A stretch of DNA of 64,000 nucleotides from assembly GCF_013401555.1 (NCBI RefSeq), contig NZ_CP058552.1, forward strand, positions 3,286,001 to 3,350,000, given 5' to 3'. The notes beneath the pieces are model-generated. The model made no database searches. It saw only the letters and a program-made list of their open reading frames with translations, and was not told where the DNA came from. The position numbers and the translations under genes were made by a program. The DNA comes from Paenibacillus sp. E222 (GTDB taxonomy: Bacteria > Bacillota > Bacilli > Paenibacillales > Paenibacillaceae). Position 1 is the stretch's first letter, and each line of letters opens with the position of its first letter. Shown piece after piece: positions 1,459-57,045 of this stretch.

Positions 1459-3339
1459 ATGGTTAAGTACCGATTCAGAACGCTTCAGCAAAGCCTGTTT
1501 GCCTACTATTCTGCAGTATTTATTGTTTTTTCATTGATTGTGGCCAGCCTCTTGTATGTTTTTCTTGCCAATGACATTCGTAGTCGAAGTGCCGAACAGC
1601 AGAAACAGCTGGGGAACTCGATGGTGGGCAACCTGGATCAGGAAATCGTCAAAATGAATAATTTCTCCATGAACATCGTATATTCCAATCTGGTCAAGGA
1701 GCACTTCAGTCACTATTTATCTCCAGCGGAGGACAATGAACAGACGCTGACAAGTGACCCGGCGTTTTACAAGGATACAACAACGCTGATTGATGTCATT
1801 CTGGCGATCATTAGCAGCTCCAACACAGCCAAACAAGCCAATATTTATGATGTAAACGGTAAAATGCTGGGTGCCGGTGCGTTCAATGGCCAGCTGTCCG
1901 TAGATCTGACCCAAAGACCGTGGTACGAGGAAACGTGGGCGCGCAATGGCTGGCGTGTCATAAGTTTACTGGATGGTGGGGCTTTACCGATGCCAACAGG
2001 GCAGGGGGAATCAGACAAACCATATCTTTCTCTTACCCGGGTGTATAAGGATGGAAATTATGTCTCGCAAGGTGTAGTCGAAATCTTGCAGGATGCTGGA
2101 ACCGTGTTCCAGCATTTGAATGATGTGCAAGCGGGGAACGAAGATCTGAGCTTCTATGTATTGAATGAACGTAATGAGCTTTTATATCCTTTATTGTCCA
2201 ATGAAAACCCGTTAAACGCACTCCATTCTGACGTTGTTAACTTGATTCGTAACGACCGCTATCCACCAGGAACGATGCAAGAAGTGGTAGATCCCAAAGG
2301 GAATTCAAAGCAAATGATGACCTACACGACCTCGCAGGAGACCGGATGGACGGTTATCGTGATGCAGTCCAAACAATCCCTGTTTGCGAATCTGAATCGC
2401 ATGGCTTTTCTGTTTATGGGGGCAACTTTAGCTACCTTGATTCTTATTCTGCTCCTCTCATACCTGATCTCCAAACGAGTGACTTTGCCGCTTCATCGTT
2501 TGCAGCGCATAATTCAGAAAACTGGCGTCCACGATCTGAGCACGGGTCAGGACTCTGGCCAGTTATTCAAGTTGGAATATCCGGGTTCCATCCGTGAGAT
2601 GGATGAGTTGAATGATACGTTTATCCAATTGAATCAACAGCTTGTGCAGTCCTTTCAAGACATGCTGGCGATTAAATCTCAGGAAACGGATGCGAGGTTG
2701 CTGGCGTTGCAGTCCCAGATGAACCCTCACTTTCTGTATAACAACATTACGAACATCAGCATCATGGCGGAGGAGGGCATGAATGAACAGATCGTTGCGT
2801 TCTGTGGTCACATCGCATCCATGCTGCGTTACATCTCGGCTCCGAACAAAAGCGGTGTTCCACTGGAAAGAGAAATCGACTACTGTGAGCGATATTTGGA
2901 GTGTATGAAAATTCGGTTCGAAGATGATCTGCTTTATGAATTCCATGTTCCGGACTCGATGAAAAATCTTCAGGTGCCCATGCTGCTGATTCAGCCTTTG
3001 CTGGAAAATGTCATGAAATATGGACTGCGTGATACACCACCCTGGAAGCTGCGTATCATTGGAGAGCTGGATACCTTACAGGAAACCTGGCTAATGACCG
3101 TCGAAGATAACGGACCTGGCATGGAACCCGAGGCGCTCAAGCTCATCCAGCAGTACATACAACAATCACAGGAATGGGAGCGTATGCCTGAACTTGAGAT
3201 CAACGGGATGGGATTGAAAAACATCTGGATCAGGCTCAAATTATGGTATGGTTCCGCGGCACATATGCATATTTCAAATAAACCTTCTGGCGGCGTCAGC
3301 ATTACGATTGGCGGTTCCATTCGAAAGGAGCACAGTTAA
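1459..3339 (+). CDS. Sensor histidine kinase, YesM/LytS-type
   Basis: 626-residue membrane sensor kinase. TM1 is about residues 13-37, then an extracellular sensor region to about 310 (Cache-like by position), TM2 about 314-336, HAMP about 337-390, and a His_kinase domain with the motif MNPHFLYNN, where His424 is the predicted phosphorylation site. The ATPase part has LLENVMKYGL (N box), VEDNGPGM (G1) and NGMGLKNIW (G2). ATG at 1459 is preceded by GAGGTG. The response-regulator gene starts 5 nt after the stop, so the two are co-transcribed. By family, the kinase phosphorylates that partner when an extracellular ligand, or the solute-binding protein of the divergent gene, is sensed. That coupling is inferred from context. 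Confidence 0.93.
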   Translation: MVKYRFRTLQQSLFAYYSAVFIVFSLIVASLLYVFLANDIRSRSAEQQKQLGNSMVGNLDQEIVKMNNFSMNIVYSNLVKEHFSHYLSPAEDNEQTLTSDPAFYKDTTTLIDVILAIISSSNTAKQANIYDVNGKMLGAGAFNGQLSVDLTQRPWYEETWARNGWRVISLLDGGALPMPTGQGESDKPYLSLTRVYKDGNYVSQGVVEILQDAGTVFQHLNDVQAGNEDLSFYVLNERNELLYPLLSNENPLNALHSDVVNLIRNDRYPPGTMQEVVDPKGNSKQMMTYTTSQETGWTVIVMQSKQSLFANLNRMAFLFMGATLATLILILLLSYLISKRVTLPLHRLQRIIQKTGVHDLSTGQDSGQLFKLEYPGSIREMDELNDTFIQLNQQLVQSFQDMLAIKSQETDARLLALQSQMNPHFLYNNITNISIMAEEGMNEQIVAFCGHIASMLRYISAPNKSGVPLEREIDYCERYLECMKIRFEDDLLYEFHVPDSMKNLQVPMLLIQPLLENVMKYGLRDTPPWKLRIIGELDTLQETWLMTVEDNGPGMEPEALKLIQQYIQQSQEWERMPELEINGMGLKNIWIRLKLWYGSAAHMHISNKPSGGVSITIGGSIRKEHS

Positions 3340-16487: not shown

Positions 16488-17351
16488 ATGACGGAACAGA
16501 AAAAAACAAATCCTTCACTCCCTGTCCTGCTTGGCGTTATGGGAGATCCCATTGCACATTCCAAATCGCCTGCCATGCATAATGCGGCTCTGCAGGCTGC
16601 TGGAGTGAATGGAATGTATATGCCACTGCATGTTCGTCCCGAGCAGCTGGAATCAGCCATTCGTGGTATAGTGGCGCTGGGGTATCGTGGTGTGAATGTA
16701 ACCATTCCGCACAAAGAACAGGTCATGCAGTATCTTGATGTCATTGATGAAAGTGCACGCCTGATTGGCGCGGTGAACACCATTGTTAATGATGAGGGCA
16801 AGCTGACAGGTTATAATACGGATGGCATCGGTTATGTGCGTTCCTTGAAGGAGGAAGCTGTTCCGGAACTCGCAGGTAAACGCATCGCTGTTCTGGGTGC
16901 TGGCGGAGCAGCAAGAGGTGTAATATACGCCCTCGCTTTGGAGAAGCCTGAACGGATTAGTATTCTTAACCGTACAGCCGACAGAGCCGTTGCCCTTGCT
17001 TCCGATCTCCGCGTTCATGGACTGGGTGACATCACAGGTAGTGGAATGGAAGAGGCTGCTGCGATACTGGCTTCGGCCGATATTGTGATTAACACAACAG
17101 CTGCGGGTATGCATCCGCATATAGATGACGTGCCTGTTGATCCTGCACTCATTCGAGCAGGCGCAGCAGTCAGCGACCTTATCTACAATCCGCTGGAAAC
17201 ACGCTTGCTTCGCGAATCAAGAGAGCGTGGATGTACTGTGCATGGTGGTCTTGGTATGTTCATATACCAAGGCGCGGTAGCATTCGAACACTGGCTTGGC
17301 ATCCCGGCTCCCGTGGAGACGATGCGGCGAGCTGTGTTAGAGAGTTTTTAA
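16488..17351 (+). CDS. aroE: Shikimate dehydrogenase
   Basis: 287 residues. Catalyses NADPH-dependent reduction of 3-dehydroshikimate to shikimate in aromatic amino-acid synthesis. Visible motifs: GDPIAHSKSPAMHNAAL (substrate-binding Ser/Ser), NVTIPHKEQ (catalytic Lys), NTDGIGYVRSL (Asp), GAGGAARGVIYALA (nucleotide-binding loop) and NRTADRA. ATG at 16488 follows GATCGGAGGCGG. Forty nt after yqeH, same operon by position. The region downstream holds a dispersed structured repeat. Confidence 0.96.
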   Translation: MTEQKKTNPSLPVLLGVMGDPIAHSKSPAMHNAALQAAGVNGMYMPLHVRPEQLESAIRGIVALGYRGVNVTIPHKEQVMQYLDVIDESARLIGAVNTIVNDEGKLTGYNTDGIGYVRSLKEEAVPELAGKRIAVLGAGGAARGVIYALALEKPERISILNRTADRAVALASDLRVHGLGDITGSGMEEAAAILASADIVINTTAAGMHPHIDDVPVDPALIRAGAAVSDLIYNPLETRLLRESRERGCTVHGGLGMFIYQGAVAFEHWLGIPAPVETMRRAVLESF

Positions 17352-17355
17352 TATT

Positions 17356-17580
17356 GTAAAATGAAAACAAGATTACACGATGACGAAGAGTGCAGAACCA
17401 ATCTGAAGAAACGAAGTGCTCGCCTCAAAGCTTTCTGTAGGAAAGCTGCTTCGGAAGCATAAGCTATCACCGGATTTCCCCCTTTATAAAATGAAAAGAA
17501 GAAATCTGGGGATAACAGCGATCGTAAGATGGTACTGCAATCGTAGTCACACTGTGTAAACTTTGTTAGTTCGTTTTATG
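17356..17580 (+). repeat. Dispersed structured intergenic repeat, copy A
   Basis: About 225 nt between aroE and yqeI, closely similar in layout and sequence to copy B at 48555-48785. Boundaries are imperfect inverted ends (TAAAATGAA at the left, TTCGTTTTA at the right) and an inner pair TTACAC (17373) / GTGTAA (17554). Inside lie AGCTTTC / GAAAGCT (4-5 nt loop), a CTTCGGAAG hairpin, and a long stem TATCACCGGATTTC (17465-17478) with GAAATCTGGGGATA (17501-17514), followed by the conserved GGGGATAACAGCGATCG. It is in the same orientation as the downstream yqeI, 89 nt before its start. No coding capacity. It could be a MITE-like element or a leader RNA. Confidence 0.8.
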
Positions 17581-17668
17581 AATGTGAAAATATAATTGAA
17601 CGGTCAAGCCCAGGGCAGACATTGTGCTGCTGCTGAGGTTTGCTCACCATAAGGAGTATGGAGTATTC

Positions 17669-22519: not shown

Positions 22520-22836
22520 GATCATATCGTATACATATTTCGATGATAAGGATCAGTAGTGAGTCCTGTACATGACAGAGAGCCGGCGGTTGGTGCAAGT
22601 CGGTTGACAGTATTTCACGAACTCGCCTTGGAGAAATGCGGTGATTACACCATCTTGCAACCGACTGAAGTAATACTCGGGATCAGGAATGGAAATCCGC
22701 ATCGGTTAACCGCCGTTACAGGTCCAAAGGGAGTGGATGACGAAGCACGATCGTCCGCTAACTAGGGTGGTACCACGGGAATTCAACCTCTCGTCCCTAG
22801 CGCTGCAAACGCTACGGGATGCTGAGGTTTTTTTGT
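22520..22836 (+). promoter_or_regulatory. T-box leader riboswitch of leuS
   Basis: The roughly 300-nt leader has the conserved T-box sequence AGGGTGGTACCACGGG at 22764-22779, whose bulge reads the 3' end of uncharged tRNA. The specifier triplet is read as CTC (Leu) at 22622-22624 in the ACGAACTCGCC context of stem I. The terminator runs from about 22785, AACCTC...CCCTAGCG with CGCTACGGG...GAGGTT, followed by TTTTTTT. Uncharged tRNA-Leu would favour the antiterminator and allow leuS expression. Confidence 0.93.
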
Positions 22837-22872: not shown

Positions 22873-25317
22873 ATGAGTGAGAATCAACAGCCGAAACACG
22901 GCTACAAGCCACAAGTTATGGAGAAAAGCTGGCAGCAATACTGGGATGACAATAAAACGTTTAAAACGGGTGAGGACCCGGCTAAACCGAAGTTTTATGC
23001 CCTGGATATGTTTCCGTATCCATCTGGCTCAGGCCTGCACGTAGGTCACCCGGAAGGATACACGGCAACGGATATCGTATCCCGTTTCAAACGTATGCGC
23101 GGCTTCAATGTATTGCATCCAATGGGTTGGGACGCTTTCGGCCTGCCTGCTGAGCAGCATGCATTGGATACTGGTGAGCATCCACGACATATTACCTTCC
23201 GCAATATTGACAATTTCCGTCGCCAGATCAAATCACTCGGTTTCTCTTATGACTGGGATCGGGAGATCAGTACAACAGACCCTGACTACTACAAATGGAC
23301 GCAATGGATCTTCATCCAATTGTACAATAAAGGCCTGGCTTACGTAGATGAAGTACCTGTGAACTGGTGCGAAGCTTTGGGTACGGTACTGGCGAACGAA
23401 GAAGTTATCGACGGTAAGAGTGAGCGTGGTGGACATCCGGTCGTTCGTAAACCGATGCGCCAATGGGTATTGAGAATTACGGAATATGCAGAGCGTTTGC
23501 TGGAAGACCTGGAAGAGCTGGACTGGTCGGAAAGTATCAAGGATATGCAGCGCAACTGGATCGGTAAATCAACCGGGGCGGAAGTTACTTTTGCCATTGA
23601 GGGTCATGAAGAAGTTATTAAAGTGTTTACGACACGTGCAGATACTTTGTTTGGCGCAAGTTATGCTGTATTGGCACCTGAGCATGAGCTGGTGGAAGTC
23701 ATTACAACGGCTGAACAGCGTGAAGCAATCAAGGCATATCAGGAACAGGCTGCTCGTAAAAGCGATCTGGAACGCACCGATTTGGCTAAAGACAAAACGG
23801 GTGTGTTCACAGGAACTTATGCAATCAATCCGGTAAACGGAGCGAAGGTGCCTATCTGGATCGCCGATTATGTTCTGGCTGGATACGGCACAGGGGCGAT
23901 CATGGCTGTTCCGGGACATGACGCTCGTGACTGGGAGTTTGCGAAACAGTTTGGTCTGGACATCATCGAGGTTGTACAGGGTGGCGACGTGACACAAGAA
24001 GCGTATTCCGGAGACGGACCACATGTGAACTCTGATTTCCTGAACGGATTGAACAACGAAGAAGCGATTGCGAAGATGATTGCCTGGTTGGAAGAGAACG
24101 GAAAGGGACAAGGCAAAACGACCTACCGTCTGCGTGACTGGTTGTTCAGCCGTCAGCGTTACTGGGGTGAGCCAATCCCGATTCTGCATCTGGAAGATGG
24201 GACGATGAAGACGGTGCCGGAAGATCAACTGCCTTTGCTGCTGCCGGATATTGACCAGATCAAACCTTCGGGCACGGGCGAATCACCACTGGCGAATGTT
24301 ACAGAATGGGTGAACACGGTAGATCCGGAAACGGGAATGAAAGCTCGTCGCGAGACGAACACAATGCCACAATGGGCCGGTAGCTGCTGGTATTATCTGC
24401 GCTTTATCGATCCACACAATGACAAGGAACTGATCTCTCAAGAGAAACAGCAGCAGTGGCTGCCGGTTGATCTGTACATCGGGGGAGCAGAGCACGCGGT
24501 GCTTCACTTGCTGTACGCTCGTTTCTGGCATAAAGTGTTGTATGATCTGGGTGTGGTGCATACCAAAGAGCCGTTCCACAAACTGGTCAACCAAGGTATG
24601 ATCCTGGGAACCAACAATGAGAAGATGAGTAAATCCCGTGGTAATGTTATTAACCCGGATGAGATCGTCAATGAATTCGGTGCGGATACATTGCGTCTGT
24701 ACGAAATGTTCATGGGGCCTTTGGAGGCTACAAAACCGTGGAACGCTAACGGGGTTGAAGGTATGCACCGCTTCCTGTCACGTGTATGGCGTCTGTTCAT
24801 CAATGAAGATACAGGTGCAATCAACGACAAGATCACATCAGATGGTGGAACCGATGAGTTCAAGCGCACTGCACACAAGACAATCAAAAAAGTTACAGAG
24901 GATCTGGAACATCTGCGTTTCAACACAGCGATCAGCCAGTTGATGATTTTCATCAACGATGCATACAAAGCAGATACGCTGCCGCGTGAAGCCATGGAGA
25001 ACTTTGTACAGCTGTTGTCACCGCTGGCACCGCATATGGCGGAGGAACTGTGGAGCCGTCTCGGTCATGAAGGTGGAATCTCTTATGTAGCTTGGCCGGA
25101 GTATGATGAGTCCATGACGGTGGACGCCGAAGTGGAAATTGTTGTTCAAGTGAACGGCAAAATTGTAACCCGTGCTACGATCGCGAAGGATCTGGACGCA
25201 CAGGGCATGCAGGACTTTACAATGGAACTGGCACCTGTGAAACAGGCACTGGAAGGCAAGACCATTCGCAAGGTCATTGCCGTTCCAGGCAAACTCGTTA
25301 ATATTGTTGCCGGTTAA
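22873..25317 (+). CDS. leuS: Leucyl-tRNA synthetase
   Basis: 814 residues, full length. Class I motifs: [16 protein letters not shown] (HIGH equivalent) near residue 47 and KMSKSRGNV with the catalytic Lys near 584. The editing (CP1) domain holds [20 protein letters not shown] and [19 protein letters not shown] at 22873 follows AGAGGAGGAAC. Controlled by the T-box leader upstream. Its last 20 nt overlap the convergent comER gene. Confidence 0.97.
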
Positions 25318-48554: not shown

Positions 48555-48785
48555 CTATATAAGATGGACAGAGAATTACACTTTAACGGAGAGTGTAGAA
48601 CCAATCTGAAGAAGCGAAGCGTTCGCCTGAAAGCTTTCGTAAGAAAGCTACTTCGGAAGCATACGCTATCACCGGATTTCTCCCTTTAAGAAAGGAGATG
48701 AAGAAATCTGGGGATAACAGCGATCGGAGGATGGTACTACAATCGGAGTGGTATAGTGTAACAAGTATTAGTTCATTTTATATAG
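48555..48785 (+). repeat. Dispersed structured intergenic repeat, copy B
   Basis: 231 nt bounded by inverted ends CTATATAAGATGGAC (48555) and GTTCATTTTATATAG (ending 48785), with inner TTACAC (48576) / GTGTAA (48756). Internal features match copy A: GAACCAATCTGAAGAA, GCGAA-GCG-TTCGC hairpin, AGCTTTC / GAAAGCT, CTTCGGAAG, and the long stem TATCACCGGATTTCT (48667-48681) with AGAAATCTGGGGATA (48702-48716), then ACAGCGATCGGAGG. Sense orientation, 29 nt before the start of the next gene and overlapping its expected 5' untranslated region. No ORF. Confidence 0.8.
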
Positions 48786-55168: not shown

Positions 55169-55365
55169 TGGTCACCCAAATTACCGCGCCCCTATTCAAA
55201 AGATACGGAGATTCTGCAAACGCAGCGAAGGGGATGGAGTTGGAACTGTAGAAGCGAAGTGCTCGCCTTTATCCCTTGATTTTTCCTATAGTGAAATGGA
55301 ATCAGAAAAATCTGGGGATAACAGCGATCGGAAGGTTGTTCTGTCATCGCAGTGGCAACTGTGGA
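55169..55365 (+). repeat. Dispersed structured intergenic repeat, copy C (C/D subtype)
   Basis: Begins GGTCACCCAAATTACCGC. A 5' domain CCCCT...AGGGG encloses CTGC / GCAG. Then TTGGAACTGTAGAAGCGAAG and the GCGA-AGTGC-TCGC hairpin, a long stem TTATCCCTTGATTTTT (55269-55284) with AAAAATCTGGGGATAA (55306-55321), and CAGCGATCGGAAGG ending in a GCGAT / ATCGC stem. The 3' half matches copies A and B, while the 5' domain is shared only with copy D. Sense with respect to the gene at 55669. Confidence 0.8.
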
Positions 55366-55395
55366 ATTTGAGATTCATCTGTACAACGACGTAAC

Positions 55396-55432
55396 CGCGA
55401 TCGAAAGTCCGATCCATCCCCGCAGCGGTCAT
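55396..55432 (+). repeat. 3' fragment of the dispersed repeat (C/D subtype)
   Basis: GATCGAAAGTCC, one substitution, ATCCATC, one substitution, CCGCAGCGGTCA: the same run as the 3' end of copy D (55582-55614). It sits between copies C and D and suggests a third, mostly deleted unit. Confidence 0.7.
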
Positions 55433-55618
55433 CCCAATTACCGCACCCCTATTCAAAAGATACGGAGATTCTGCAAATGTAGCGGAGGGGATGGAATTGG
55501 AACTGTAGAAGCGAAGCGTTCGCCTTTGTCTCCAAATTTTAACCTTCTGAATAATAAATCAATAAAATTTGGAGACAACAGTGATCGAAAGTCCAATCCA
55601 TCACCGCAGCGGTCACCT
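55423..55618 (+). repeat. Dispersed structured intergenic repeat, copy D (C/D subtype)
   Basis: Direct repeat of copy C offset by about 250 bp: first 95 nt nearly identical up to GAAGCGAAGCGTTCGCC. The central stem has a wholly different sequence, TTGTCTCCAAATTTT (55526-55540) with AAAATTTGGAGACAA (55564-55578), 15 perfect pairs. It is followed by CAGTGATCGAAAGTCC and a GTGAT / ATCAC stem where copy C has GCGAT / ATCGC. Ends about 50 nt before the TTG start of the methyltransferase gene. Confidence 0.8.
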
Positions 55619-55668: not shown

Positions 55669-57045
55669 TTGCCATCAGTTACACTGGAACGCAGCCGCAA
55701 AAAGCGGCTTGAACATGCACATCCATGGATATATAACAATGAAATCGCCTCTGTTGAAGGAAACCCCGAGCCGGGAGATCTGGTCAACGTAATGAATCAC
55801 CAAGGTCGCTATCTCGCGACAGGGTACTATAATCCTGCATCTCAAATCACAGTGCGAGTCGTGGCCTATCAACCCTTGGAGTTTGAACAGATGGACACCG
55901 CGTTTTTTGCAGCGCGTTTCCGCGATTGCTTACGCCACCGGGAGCGTTTTATCCAGGATGGGGAGGCATACCGTCTTGTTTATGGGGAAGCTGATTTTCT
56001 GCCTGGACTGATCGTTGACCGTTTTGGCAGCATCCTTGTTGTTCAATTGCTCACATTGGGGATGGACCGTTGCCGCGAAGCGATTGTACAAGCTCTAATT
56101 GAAGTGATGCAGCCGGAAGGCATCTATGAACGCAGTGATGTGTCCATTCGTGAACTCGAAGGCTTGGAGCAGACGAAAGGACCATTGTATGGGGATTGCC
56201 CGCGTCATGTCACGGTAACGGAGAACGGATTGCTCATTAAGGTGGATATCGTGGAAGGCCAGAAGACAGGGTACTTCTTCGACCAGCGCGAGAATCGTGC
56301 AGCCATCGAACCGCTTATGAAGGGTTGGGGTTACAAGAGCGGTATTACGCTCCAACAGACTGAGCAGGATGGTACGCAGCAGCTGCTTCCTGTGAATAAA
56401 AGCGGCAAGGTTGTGACGTTCCCTTATTGGGATGGGGCCACTGTGCTGGAATGTTTCTCCCATACCGGCAGCTTCACATTGAACGCCTGCAAATATGGAG
56501 CCAAAAAAGTAACCTGCCTGGATATCTCAGAGCATGCGATTGAAAGTGCACGTACCAACGTAGAACTGAACGGGTTTACAGACCGGGTTGAATTTGTCGT
56601 TGCGGATGCATTCCAATACTTGCGTGAGCAGGTGAAAGGCCTCGATGAGCGTAACGTACGTGCACGTGCTGGCGAACAGAAAGTGGATACGTCCAAAGCG
56701 CTAGCAGCCGGTGGCAAAACATTTGATGTGGTCATCCTCGACCCACCAGCCTTTGCCAAAACGAAATCAGCAGTCAAAGGCGCATGCCGTGGATATAAGG
56801 ACATCAATCTGCAAGGAATGAAACTGGTGAATGAGGGCGGGTATTTGGTAACGGCAAGCTGTTCATACCACATGCGTCCGGATCTCTTCCTGGAAACCAT
56901 TGCGGATGCAGCCGAGGATGCAGGCAAAGTGCTTCGTCTAATCGACTGGAAAGCAGCTGGTAAGGATCACCCACAAATTTTGGGGGTAGACGAAGGTCAT
57001 TACCTGAAATTTGCCATCTTCGAAGTACGCAGCAAAAAGAATTAA
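55669..57045 (+). CDS. RlmI/RlmK-like class I rRNA methyltransferase
   Basis: 458 residues from a TTG start at 55669 with AAAGGAAGTGG upstream. N-terminal PUA domain (about 1-75: ERSRKKRLEHAHPWIYNNEI), then the RlmI-type Rossmann domain: VLECFSHTGSFTLNACKYGA (motif I, near 262), CLDISEHAIESARTNVELNG, VVILDPPAFAKTKSAVKG (motif IV, near 358) and VTASCSYHM. E. coli RlmI makes m5C1962 in 23S rRNA, but the target here is uncertain. Two inserts (about 225-250, LQQTEQDGTQQLLPVNKSGK, and about 324-348) make it longer than the usual 390-400 residues. B. subtilis YwbD is the closest familiar relative. Confidence 0.88.
   Translation: MPSVTLERSRKKRLEHAHPWIYNNEIASVEGNPEPGDLVNVMNHQGRYLATGYYNPASQITVRVVAYQPLEFEQMDTAFFAARFRDCLRHRERFIQDGEAYRLVYGEADFLPGLIVDRFGSILVVQLLTLGMDRCREAIVQALIEVMQPEGIYERSDVSIRELEGLEQTKGPLYGDCPRHVTVTENGLLIKVDIVEGQKTGYFFDQRENRAAIEPLMKGWGYKSGITLQQTEQDGTQQLLPVNKSGKVVTFPYWDGATVLECFSHTGSFTLNACKYGAKKVTCLDISEHAIESARTNVELNGFTDRVEFVVADAFQYLREQVKGLDERNVRARAGEQKVDTSKALAAGGKTFDVVILDPPAFAKTKSAVKGACRGYKDINLQGMKLVNEGGYLVTASCSYHMRPDLFLETIADAAEDAGKVLRLIDWKAAGKDHPQILGVDEGHYLKFAIFEVRSKKN

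Follow-up and report, generated by a model that had tools for sequence, protein, structure and literature searches.

The DNA considered here is a stretch of 64,000 nucleotides from Paenibacillus sp. E222 (contig NZ_CP058552.1, positions 3,286,001 to 3,350,000), which we refer to as the window and which contains four non-coding repeat copies, A to D. The locus of copy D raises the question of why the same hairpin recurs in copies whose sequences differ widely: the pairing could have been kept by selection on a folded RNA or DNA, as an initial annotation of the sequence had proposed, or it could simply be a trace of recent duplication. It is well supported that A to D belong to one covarying, sense-oriented and once-mobile family, which is spread over an order. 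Our best reading, put forward tentatively and with less than even confidence, is that a mobile-derived element has come to be selected as RNA, as a processing or stability element that would act in cis within leaders or between cistrons.

A large family with a covarying fold

A Blast search of the 7,516,894-base genome with copy D returned 44 matches including itself, and a strict pattern was found at 10 genome places, against none for the reversed control. The covariance model R1, built from 37 MAFFT-aligned copies and using a three-way junction fold with a local hairpin P2, gave at least 133 matches in this genome at E<=1, at least 126 of them with E<1e-7; the copy number is a lower bound, as 150 of 2994 candidates were scored. 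We count at least 126 copies in this 7.5-Mb genome, four of which, A to D, are those of the window. The element measures about 190-270 nt, and the model match of ~137 nt (~175 nt with a 38-nt module) is set within longer arms. Across the order, where at most 11 candidates per genome were scored, R1 matched at E<=0.001 in 232 of 296 genomes and in 30 of 48 genera, and the 30 genomes of other genera that were analyzed contained from 4 to 107 matches each. Loci from relatives were chosen as the best-scoring ones and do not represent a random draw.

In the first alignment of 37 copies the RNAalifold consensus comprised 34 pairs, 22 of which had changed on both sides. For the larger test we fitted 122 copies to the model, leaving out the three loci that hold the other four of the 126. 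Of 4079 cells, 93.7% were paired, as compared with 82.9% after shuffling and 34.5-48.4% in slid registers, and two-sided changes were present in 33 of the 34 pairs. A second set, 32 copies taken from 16 other genera (30 genomes), had 96.1% of its cells paired and two-sided changes in 29 of the 34 pairs. Because relatedness can mimic covariation, we used a tree-based null in which the substitutions of each branch are redistributed over columns (our own script, not R-scape). Tested as a set, 14 of the 34 structural pairs were significant in the own-genome copies and 19 in those of other genera; tested among all column pairs, 5 (4 in a run with fewer simulations) and 9 structural pairs were significant, and no column pair outside the structure reached significance in either copy set. 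Omitting three tandem copies from the own-genome test left 14 of 34 pairs significant as a set and 3 among all pairs.

Several of the alignments (A3, A4 and A7-A9) were fitted to the model. A model-free MAFFT alignment of 31 of the 32 distant copies (the weakest match having been dropped) recovered the basal and central stems, with a helix P3a in place of P2, and in the fresh fold of these 31 copies 30 of 38 pairs had changed on both sides.

These results bear directly on the initial annotation, which had described central stems in copies A to D, held that double substitutions preserve them and suggested a covariation test over all genomic copies. The quoted stems are all located in the window sequence as described, and under such a test the central stem covaries. 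The maintenance of pairing by double substitutions goes beyond shared ancestry across many copies, and is also found among orthologues of a single site. The annotation had further read a 3' stem that changes from GCGAT/ATCGC in copy C to GTGAT/ATCAC in copy D. The pentamers exist, but we rejected this stem as a family feature, since an exact complement 8-28 nt downstream is present in 4 of 122 copies, two of which are C and D themselves. The 3' stem is missing from 118 of 122 copies, and the GCGA assigned to it is able to pair instead with UCGC beneath the central stem. Beyond the initial annotation lay three further features: the basal stem, in which covariation is strongest, outer arms that are specific to each copy, and the 38-nt module.

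Architecture of the element

The element can be described as a long irregular hairpin, which consists of outer arms, the basal stem P1, an asymmetric internal loop, P3a, a small internal loop and the central stem P3. P3 is the most variable part, and in copy D it forms a perfect stem of 15 bp with a loop of 23 nt. The purine-rich internal loop is strongly conserved, with GnAGAAGCGnAG opposite GGA, and its letters are retained in the 16 other genera, in which P3 is largely variable. The outer arms have a median pairing score of 26 within a copy (126 copies) against 16 between copies, which equals the shuffled value; as the arms pair only within their own copy, they must have changed in step.

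P3a is formed by CG-U-UCGC with GCGA-U-CG, and its UCGC has two possible partners, GCGn just upstream (P2) or GCGA on the 3' side (P3a). The three-way junction with P2 (GCGn/UCGC), proposed by RNAalifold for the first alignment, was judged the weaker candidate. P3a is preferred because it is better paired in both copy sets (95.6% of own-genome cells and 99.2% of those from other genera, as compared with 91.5% and 89.8% for P2); its changes are compensated (CCGC/GCGG, UCAC/GUGA), whereas the fourth position of P2 varies freely. In 26 of 120 copies here and in 11 of 32 elsewhere the four inner P3a pairs can all form while P2 is incomplete, and the reverse holds for 1 and 0. Either helix could form in full, with all four pairs, in 82 of the 120 own-genome copies and in 20 of the 32 others, and P2 is a possible alternative state. 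Neither helix covaries significantly (best E for P3a 0.2 in the first set and 0.95 in the second), because both are too conserved.

Orientation and the folding strand

Genes were taken from our own caller of open reading frames (ORFs), by which 124 copies have clear neighbors and two more overlap weak ORFs. Between genes of their own sense lie 87 copies, 12 lie between antisense genes, 18 at divergent and 7 at convergent sites. Altogether 105 of the 124 are sense to the downstream gene, against an expectation of 54% from the intergenic bases of the window and 17 background blocks, and the next downstream gene boundary follows the match end at a median of 66 nt, a figure that also counts the 19 antisense downstream genes. 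Of the 32 copies from other genera, 30 could be classed, as 17 sense, 3 antisense, 5 divergent and 5 convergent. Replication is not supported as the director of orientation, since at divergent and convergent sites, where gene direction cannot decide, the leading to lagging strand ratio is 15:10; the numbers for lagging-strand genes are small (6:2).

The type of mismatch is informative as to the strand that folds. Correction of palindromes is blind to the strand and would be expected to leave G.T and A.C mismatches in equal number. In the 122 copies, G.T occupies 229 and A.C 49 cells (484 and 324 after shuffling), counts that represent cells rather than events and in which one pair supplies 75 of the 229; among orthologous copies the ratio is 39:2 upstream of efp and 52:3 at the locus of copy B. 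This surplus of G.T suggests that folding takes place in the sense strand. P1 shows it plainly (88:7), and most of it in P3 (103:18) comes from the pair that supplies the 75 cells. Orientation is the stronger argument for RNA than this mismatch asymmetry.

Persistence at orthologous sites

Two genes permit the element to be followed at one site. Upstream of eno, where the gene preceding the element reads as gpmI by eye, we examined 50 of the 60 genomes found by the search, and the element was present in 32 of these, namely in 30 of the 30 nearest and 2 of the 20 further ones; the 18 loci without it are those with an eno identity of <=92%. Upstream of efp, where the nearest 30 of 60 genomes were considered, it is present in 27, and the other 3 have the site without the element. 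The efp copies have a median identity of 67%, yet 94.0% of their cells are paired (84.5% after shuffling) and 15 of the 34 pairs have two-sided changes. Decay of the fold would be the expected fate of a dead insertion, unlike orthologous copies that diverge and stay folded. An alternative explanation for the kept fold at such sites would be gene conversion between copies.

An RNA element or a selfish one

On the sequence features given above, action in cis on messenger RNA (mRNA) is likely, and action specifically as a processing and stability element is our best guess. Each copy would be transcribed within a leader or an inter-cistron spacer, would fold and would then act on the adjoining mRNA. 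The long duplex may be cut, or may act as a barrier to exonucleases, and either event could leave a protected 5' end for the downstream cistron, with the conserved loop as a putative site for a nuclease or an RNA-binding protein. The family spread by insertion, and antisense insertions, which would make no such loop, would have been removed by selection. Comparable actions have been described in other bacteria: ERIC elements are inserted in transcribed regions and undergo putative, orientation-dependent cleavage by RNase E, and the CE elements of Neisseria, also inserted in transcribed regions, are cleaved by RNase III (both as outlined in PMC3049150). The likeness of the Paenibacillus element to these is one of description.

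A bolder version holds that the element is a standard part of mRNA, recognized by a single dedicated nuclease or RNA-binding protein by which the stability or translation of about a hundred unrelated genes per genome is set. We consider this unlikely; if true, it would represent a post-transcriptional regulon assembled by transposition, which would include the core genes eno, efp, secA and hisA/hisF. Interspersed repeats are commonly classed as parasitic, and here the fold, the loop letters and the orientation look RNA-selected across an order. If the family is functional, it would constitute an unrecognized mRNA element common to a large bacterial group, and operons that carry copies would be incompletely understood. 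The domestication of such a repeat can be tested where the same gene is preceded by the element in some genomes and by an empty site in others, as at efp and the copy B locus.

Several observations weigh against an RNA function. At eno the orthologous copies exceed the shuffled control by little (87.3% against 84.5% of cells paired, with 7 two-sided pairs), and their G.T:A.C ratio is only 18:12. The asymmetry is also weak in P2 (38:24), and in the inspected table P3 pairs of balanced composition have no excess of G.T. Among 99 codirectional copies, 12 are antisense and yet score 84.6-144.1 bits. No downstream function appears to be shared, as no Pfam family occurs in more than 3 of 101 downstream proteins; eight downstream genes that were checked are, by NCBIfam cut-offs, eno, efp, hisF, hisA, secA, araA, carA and pth. 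Finally, the orientation bias could result purely from the purging of harmful antisense copies.

The last point leads to the main rival, a purely selfish miniature inverted-repeat transposable element (MITE) of no benefit to the host, whose fold would matter only in the DNA or for recognition by a transposase and whose harmful antisense copies would have been lost. We regard it as possible, if somewhat unlikely. The family does look MITE-like in its terminal inverted repeats (TIRs), its nesting and its empty sites. Of the 126 copies, 42 have repeats like TATATAARTTGAACTA at both ends, 19 at one end and 65 at none, while 1 of 3400 background positions has them on both sides; the genome contains 63 TIR-like sites. 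A clear target-site duplication was not seen by eye in flanks or empty sites. In two loci (L251 and L253) a type II element is nested in a type I element according to our reading of the alignment. At the locus of copy B the element is present in 24 of 30 genomes and missing from 6, and the filled sites carry differing subtypes at the same place. Within 2.5 kb upstream of the RlmI-like gene that follows copies C and D, 9 of 80 loci hold copies and the other 71 hold none (E<=0.01). The highly variable number of matches per genome in other genera and the unrelated downstream genes are likewise what a selfish element would give. Against it stand the orthologous copies, which diverge yet stay folded, and the unpaired loop letters, which are conserved across genera. 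Convergent gaps provide evidence on both sides: in this genome they hold 7 of 124 copies and make up 42 of 343 gaps (p=0.04), a depletion, while in other genera such sites are not rare (5 of 30 copies).

The 38-nt hairpin module, which lies between the P2 region and P3, occurs in 41 of the 126 copies. Its presence varies within both subtypes among the orthologues of copy B, and also sets apart L219 and L220, two nearly identical orthologues; it is perhaps a mobile part within the mobile element. In one locus (L136) it seems to be doubled.

Among known systems, the bcr1 repeats of the Bacillus cereus group, a related Gram-positive lineage, are likewise interspersed, multi-copy and folded, a likeness of description and not of sequence. 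The nearest counterpart is the BOX element of Streptococcus pneumoniae, which in the account given in PMC3049150 is alike in copy number (125), intergenic location, folding with paired terminal repeats and modular structure, and is proposed to be mobile in a non-autonomous manner. Some BOX elements are co-transcribed with genes, and the authors argue that BOX enrichment between convergent genes is a sign of parasites (PMC3049150). As far as a comparison by description goes, the Paenibacillus family differs: it is scarce at convergent sites in this genome, the opposite of the enrichment described for BOX, and it is strongly sense-oriented, has a conserved loop and extends over one order, where 30 of the 48 genera sampled contain it. 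The candidate motifs listed as mobile or repeated in a 2024 survey (PMC11109978) are also structured and numerous per genome; in its main text, inconsistent gene orientation is taken to mark mobility, whereas the orientation of the present family is mostly consistent, and the string 'Paenibac' does not occur there. Repetitive extragenic palindromes (REP, REPIN) were rejected on size, a REP unit being a palindrome of 20-40 nt in the description of PMC3733652, far from a model match of ~137 nt or ~175 nt inside longer arms. The available sections of an RNA-seq paper on P. riograndensis (PMC5670726) do not mention repeats. None of five pieces of the core sequence occurred in the papers searched, and no Paenibacillus repeat of such a type stood among the records listed; the novelty of the family is therefore not proven.

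Two further candidates were set aside. A known RNA family was rejected, as T-box leaders alone matched among the Rfam models (in the window and at 4 loci) and nothing matched at E<=1 over copies C and D. A phage or plasmid element was rejected as well, since one distant copy used as a query matched no phage record and, among plasmids, two records of Paenibacillus cellulosilyticus only. Of ten IMG/VR stretches (L411-L420), 9 carry the core motif no more than about 1.8 kb from one of their ends; these ends may be contig ends, with host DNA beside a provirus.

Returning to the alternatives, a regulatory RNA aptamer, such as a riboswitch or a protein-binding RNA that controls one regulon, would turn the sharing of UCGC by P2 and P3a into a switch between two states. 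That both helices are fully possible in most copies would fit this idea, as would the conserved loop and the position before genes. It nevertheless appears improbable, given that the downstream genes have no common pathway, that P3a alone fits the letters better and that the fourth position of P2 is free.

Very improbable is the view that the fold is not selected at all and that template switching during replication corrects imperfect DNA palindromes and thereby mimics compensation. Such correction would produce outer arms that are complementary within but not between copies, as observed, and the eno set has no strand asymmetry; being strand-blind, it is at odds with the G.T excess in the three other alignments, and it leaves the conserved unpaired letters and the orientation bias unexplained. 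Least probable of all, at the edge of what we would consider, is transposition via single-stranded DNA exposed by transcription, which would account for the sense-strand fold and a gene-directed orientation without RNA function, but symmetrical TIRs would better suit a double-strand transposase and the retention at eno and efp would be left unexplained.

Copies in the window and their surroundings

The coordinates of the four copies and of their parts are collected in Table 1. The possibility that copy D is a chimera had been raised; its alignment bears no such sign, and on our reading it is copy C that is composite. Most simply, on its sequence, copy C may be the remainder of a type II-in-type I nest after loss of the middle. 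When the arm of copy A was searched in the window with <=2 mismatches, 5 matches were found, 4 of which fall on the arms of copies A and B, as compared with a mean of 0.43 and at most 2 matches in 100 shuffles. The product of the gene downstream of C and D has RlmI as its best NCBIfam match, at 327 bits and under the curated cut-off of 712; by this protein, Paenibacillus taichungensis strains are the closest named relatives.

Table 1. Location of copies A to D, their parts and the adjoining gene.
Feature	Position in window	Strand	Remarks
Copy A with complementary outer arms	17346..17590	+	
Copy A model match	17380..17553	+	type II; genome 3303380-3303553
Copy A 38-nt hairpin module	17427..17464	+	
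Copy A central stem	17465-17478/17501-17514		
Copy B with terminal inverted repeats	48555..48785	+	CTATATAAGATGGAC / GTTCATTTTATATAG
Copy B model match	48583..48755	+	type II; genome 3334583-3334755
Copy B 38-nt hairpin module	48629..48666	+	
Copy B central stem	48667-48680/48703-48716		plus one pair
Copy C model match	55222..55359	+	read as type I 5' half, type II core and 3' half; genome 3341222-3341359
Copy C central stem	55269-55284/55306-55321		
3' arm remnant of a type I host element	55393..55431	+	host apparently entered by the type II element of copy C; 90% identity to D 55577-55615
Copy D full model match	55479..55616	+	type I; G000:3341479-3341616; 146.0 bits
Copy D basal stem P1, 5' arm	55479..55507	+	with beginning of conserved purine-rich loop
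Copy D P3a, 5' arm	55517..55523	+	CG-U-UCGC; extends P3; alternative to local hairpin P2
Copy D central stem P3, 5' arm	55526..55540	+	feature of the initial annotation (55526-55578)
Copy D central stem P3, 3' arm	55564..55578	+	
Copy D P3a, 3' arm	55581..55587	+	GUGA-U-CG; start initially read as part of a 3' stem
Copy D basal stem P1, 3' arm	55589..55616	+	
RlmI-like 23S rRNA methyltransferase gene	55669..57045	+	downstream of copies C and D

Outside the window, none of the 126 copies lies in the ~0.84 Mb between 4.22 and 5.06 Mb of the genome, on one side of the presumed terminus, which was placed by a change in skew between 4.8 and 5.2 Mb. Two short copies (L122:2201-2303, 103 nt, and L158:2201-2272, 72 nt) keep the letters of the basal stem but are missing the central stem for the most part or wholly, and one pair of copies faces in opposite directions at a distance of 186 nt (L077:2201-2344, minus strand, and 2531-2670, plus strand). 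Four tandem copies lie 250-260 nt apart at L078:7774-8683 (minus strand, genome 434494-435403); their fold is still matched, and with 65-66% G+C they differ from the about 45% of most copies.

The T-box leader of the window (22534-22801, plus strand, 110.9 bits) lies upstream of the ORF 22873-25317. A second one is found in L078 (1814-2116, plus strand), where an element copy (2201-2336, plus strand) is placed between the leader and a gene that starts at 2460 and whose protein looks like tryptophanyl-tRNA synthetase by eye. This arrangement resembles the trp operon of pneumococci, in which, as described in PMC3049150, a BOX element is situated between T-boxes.
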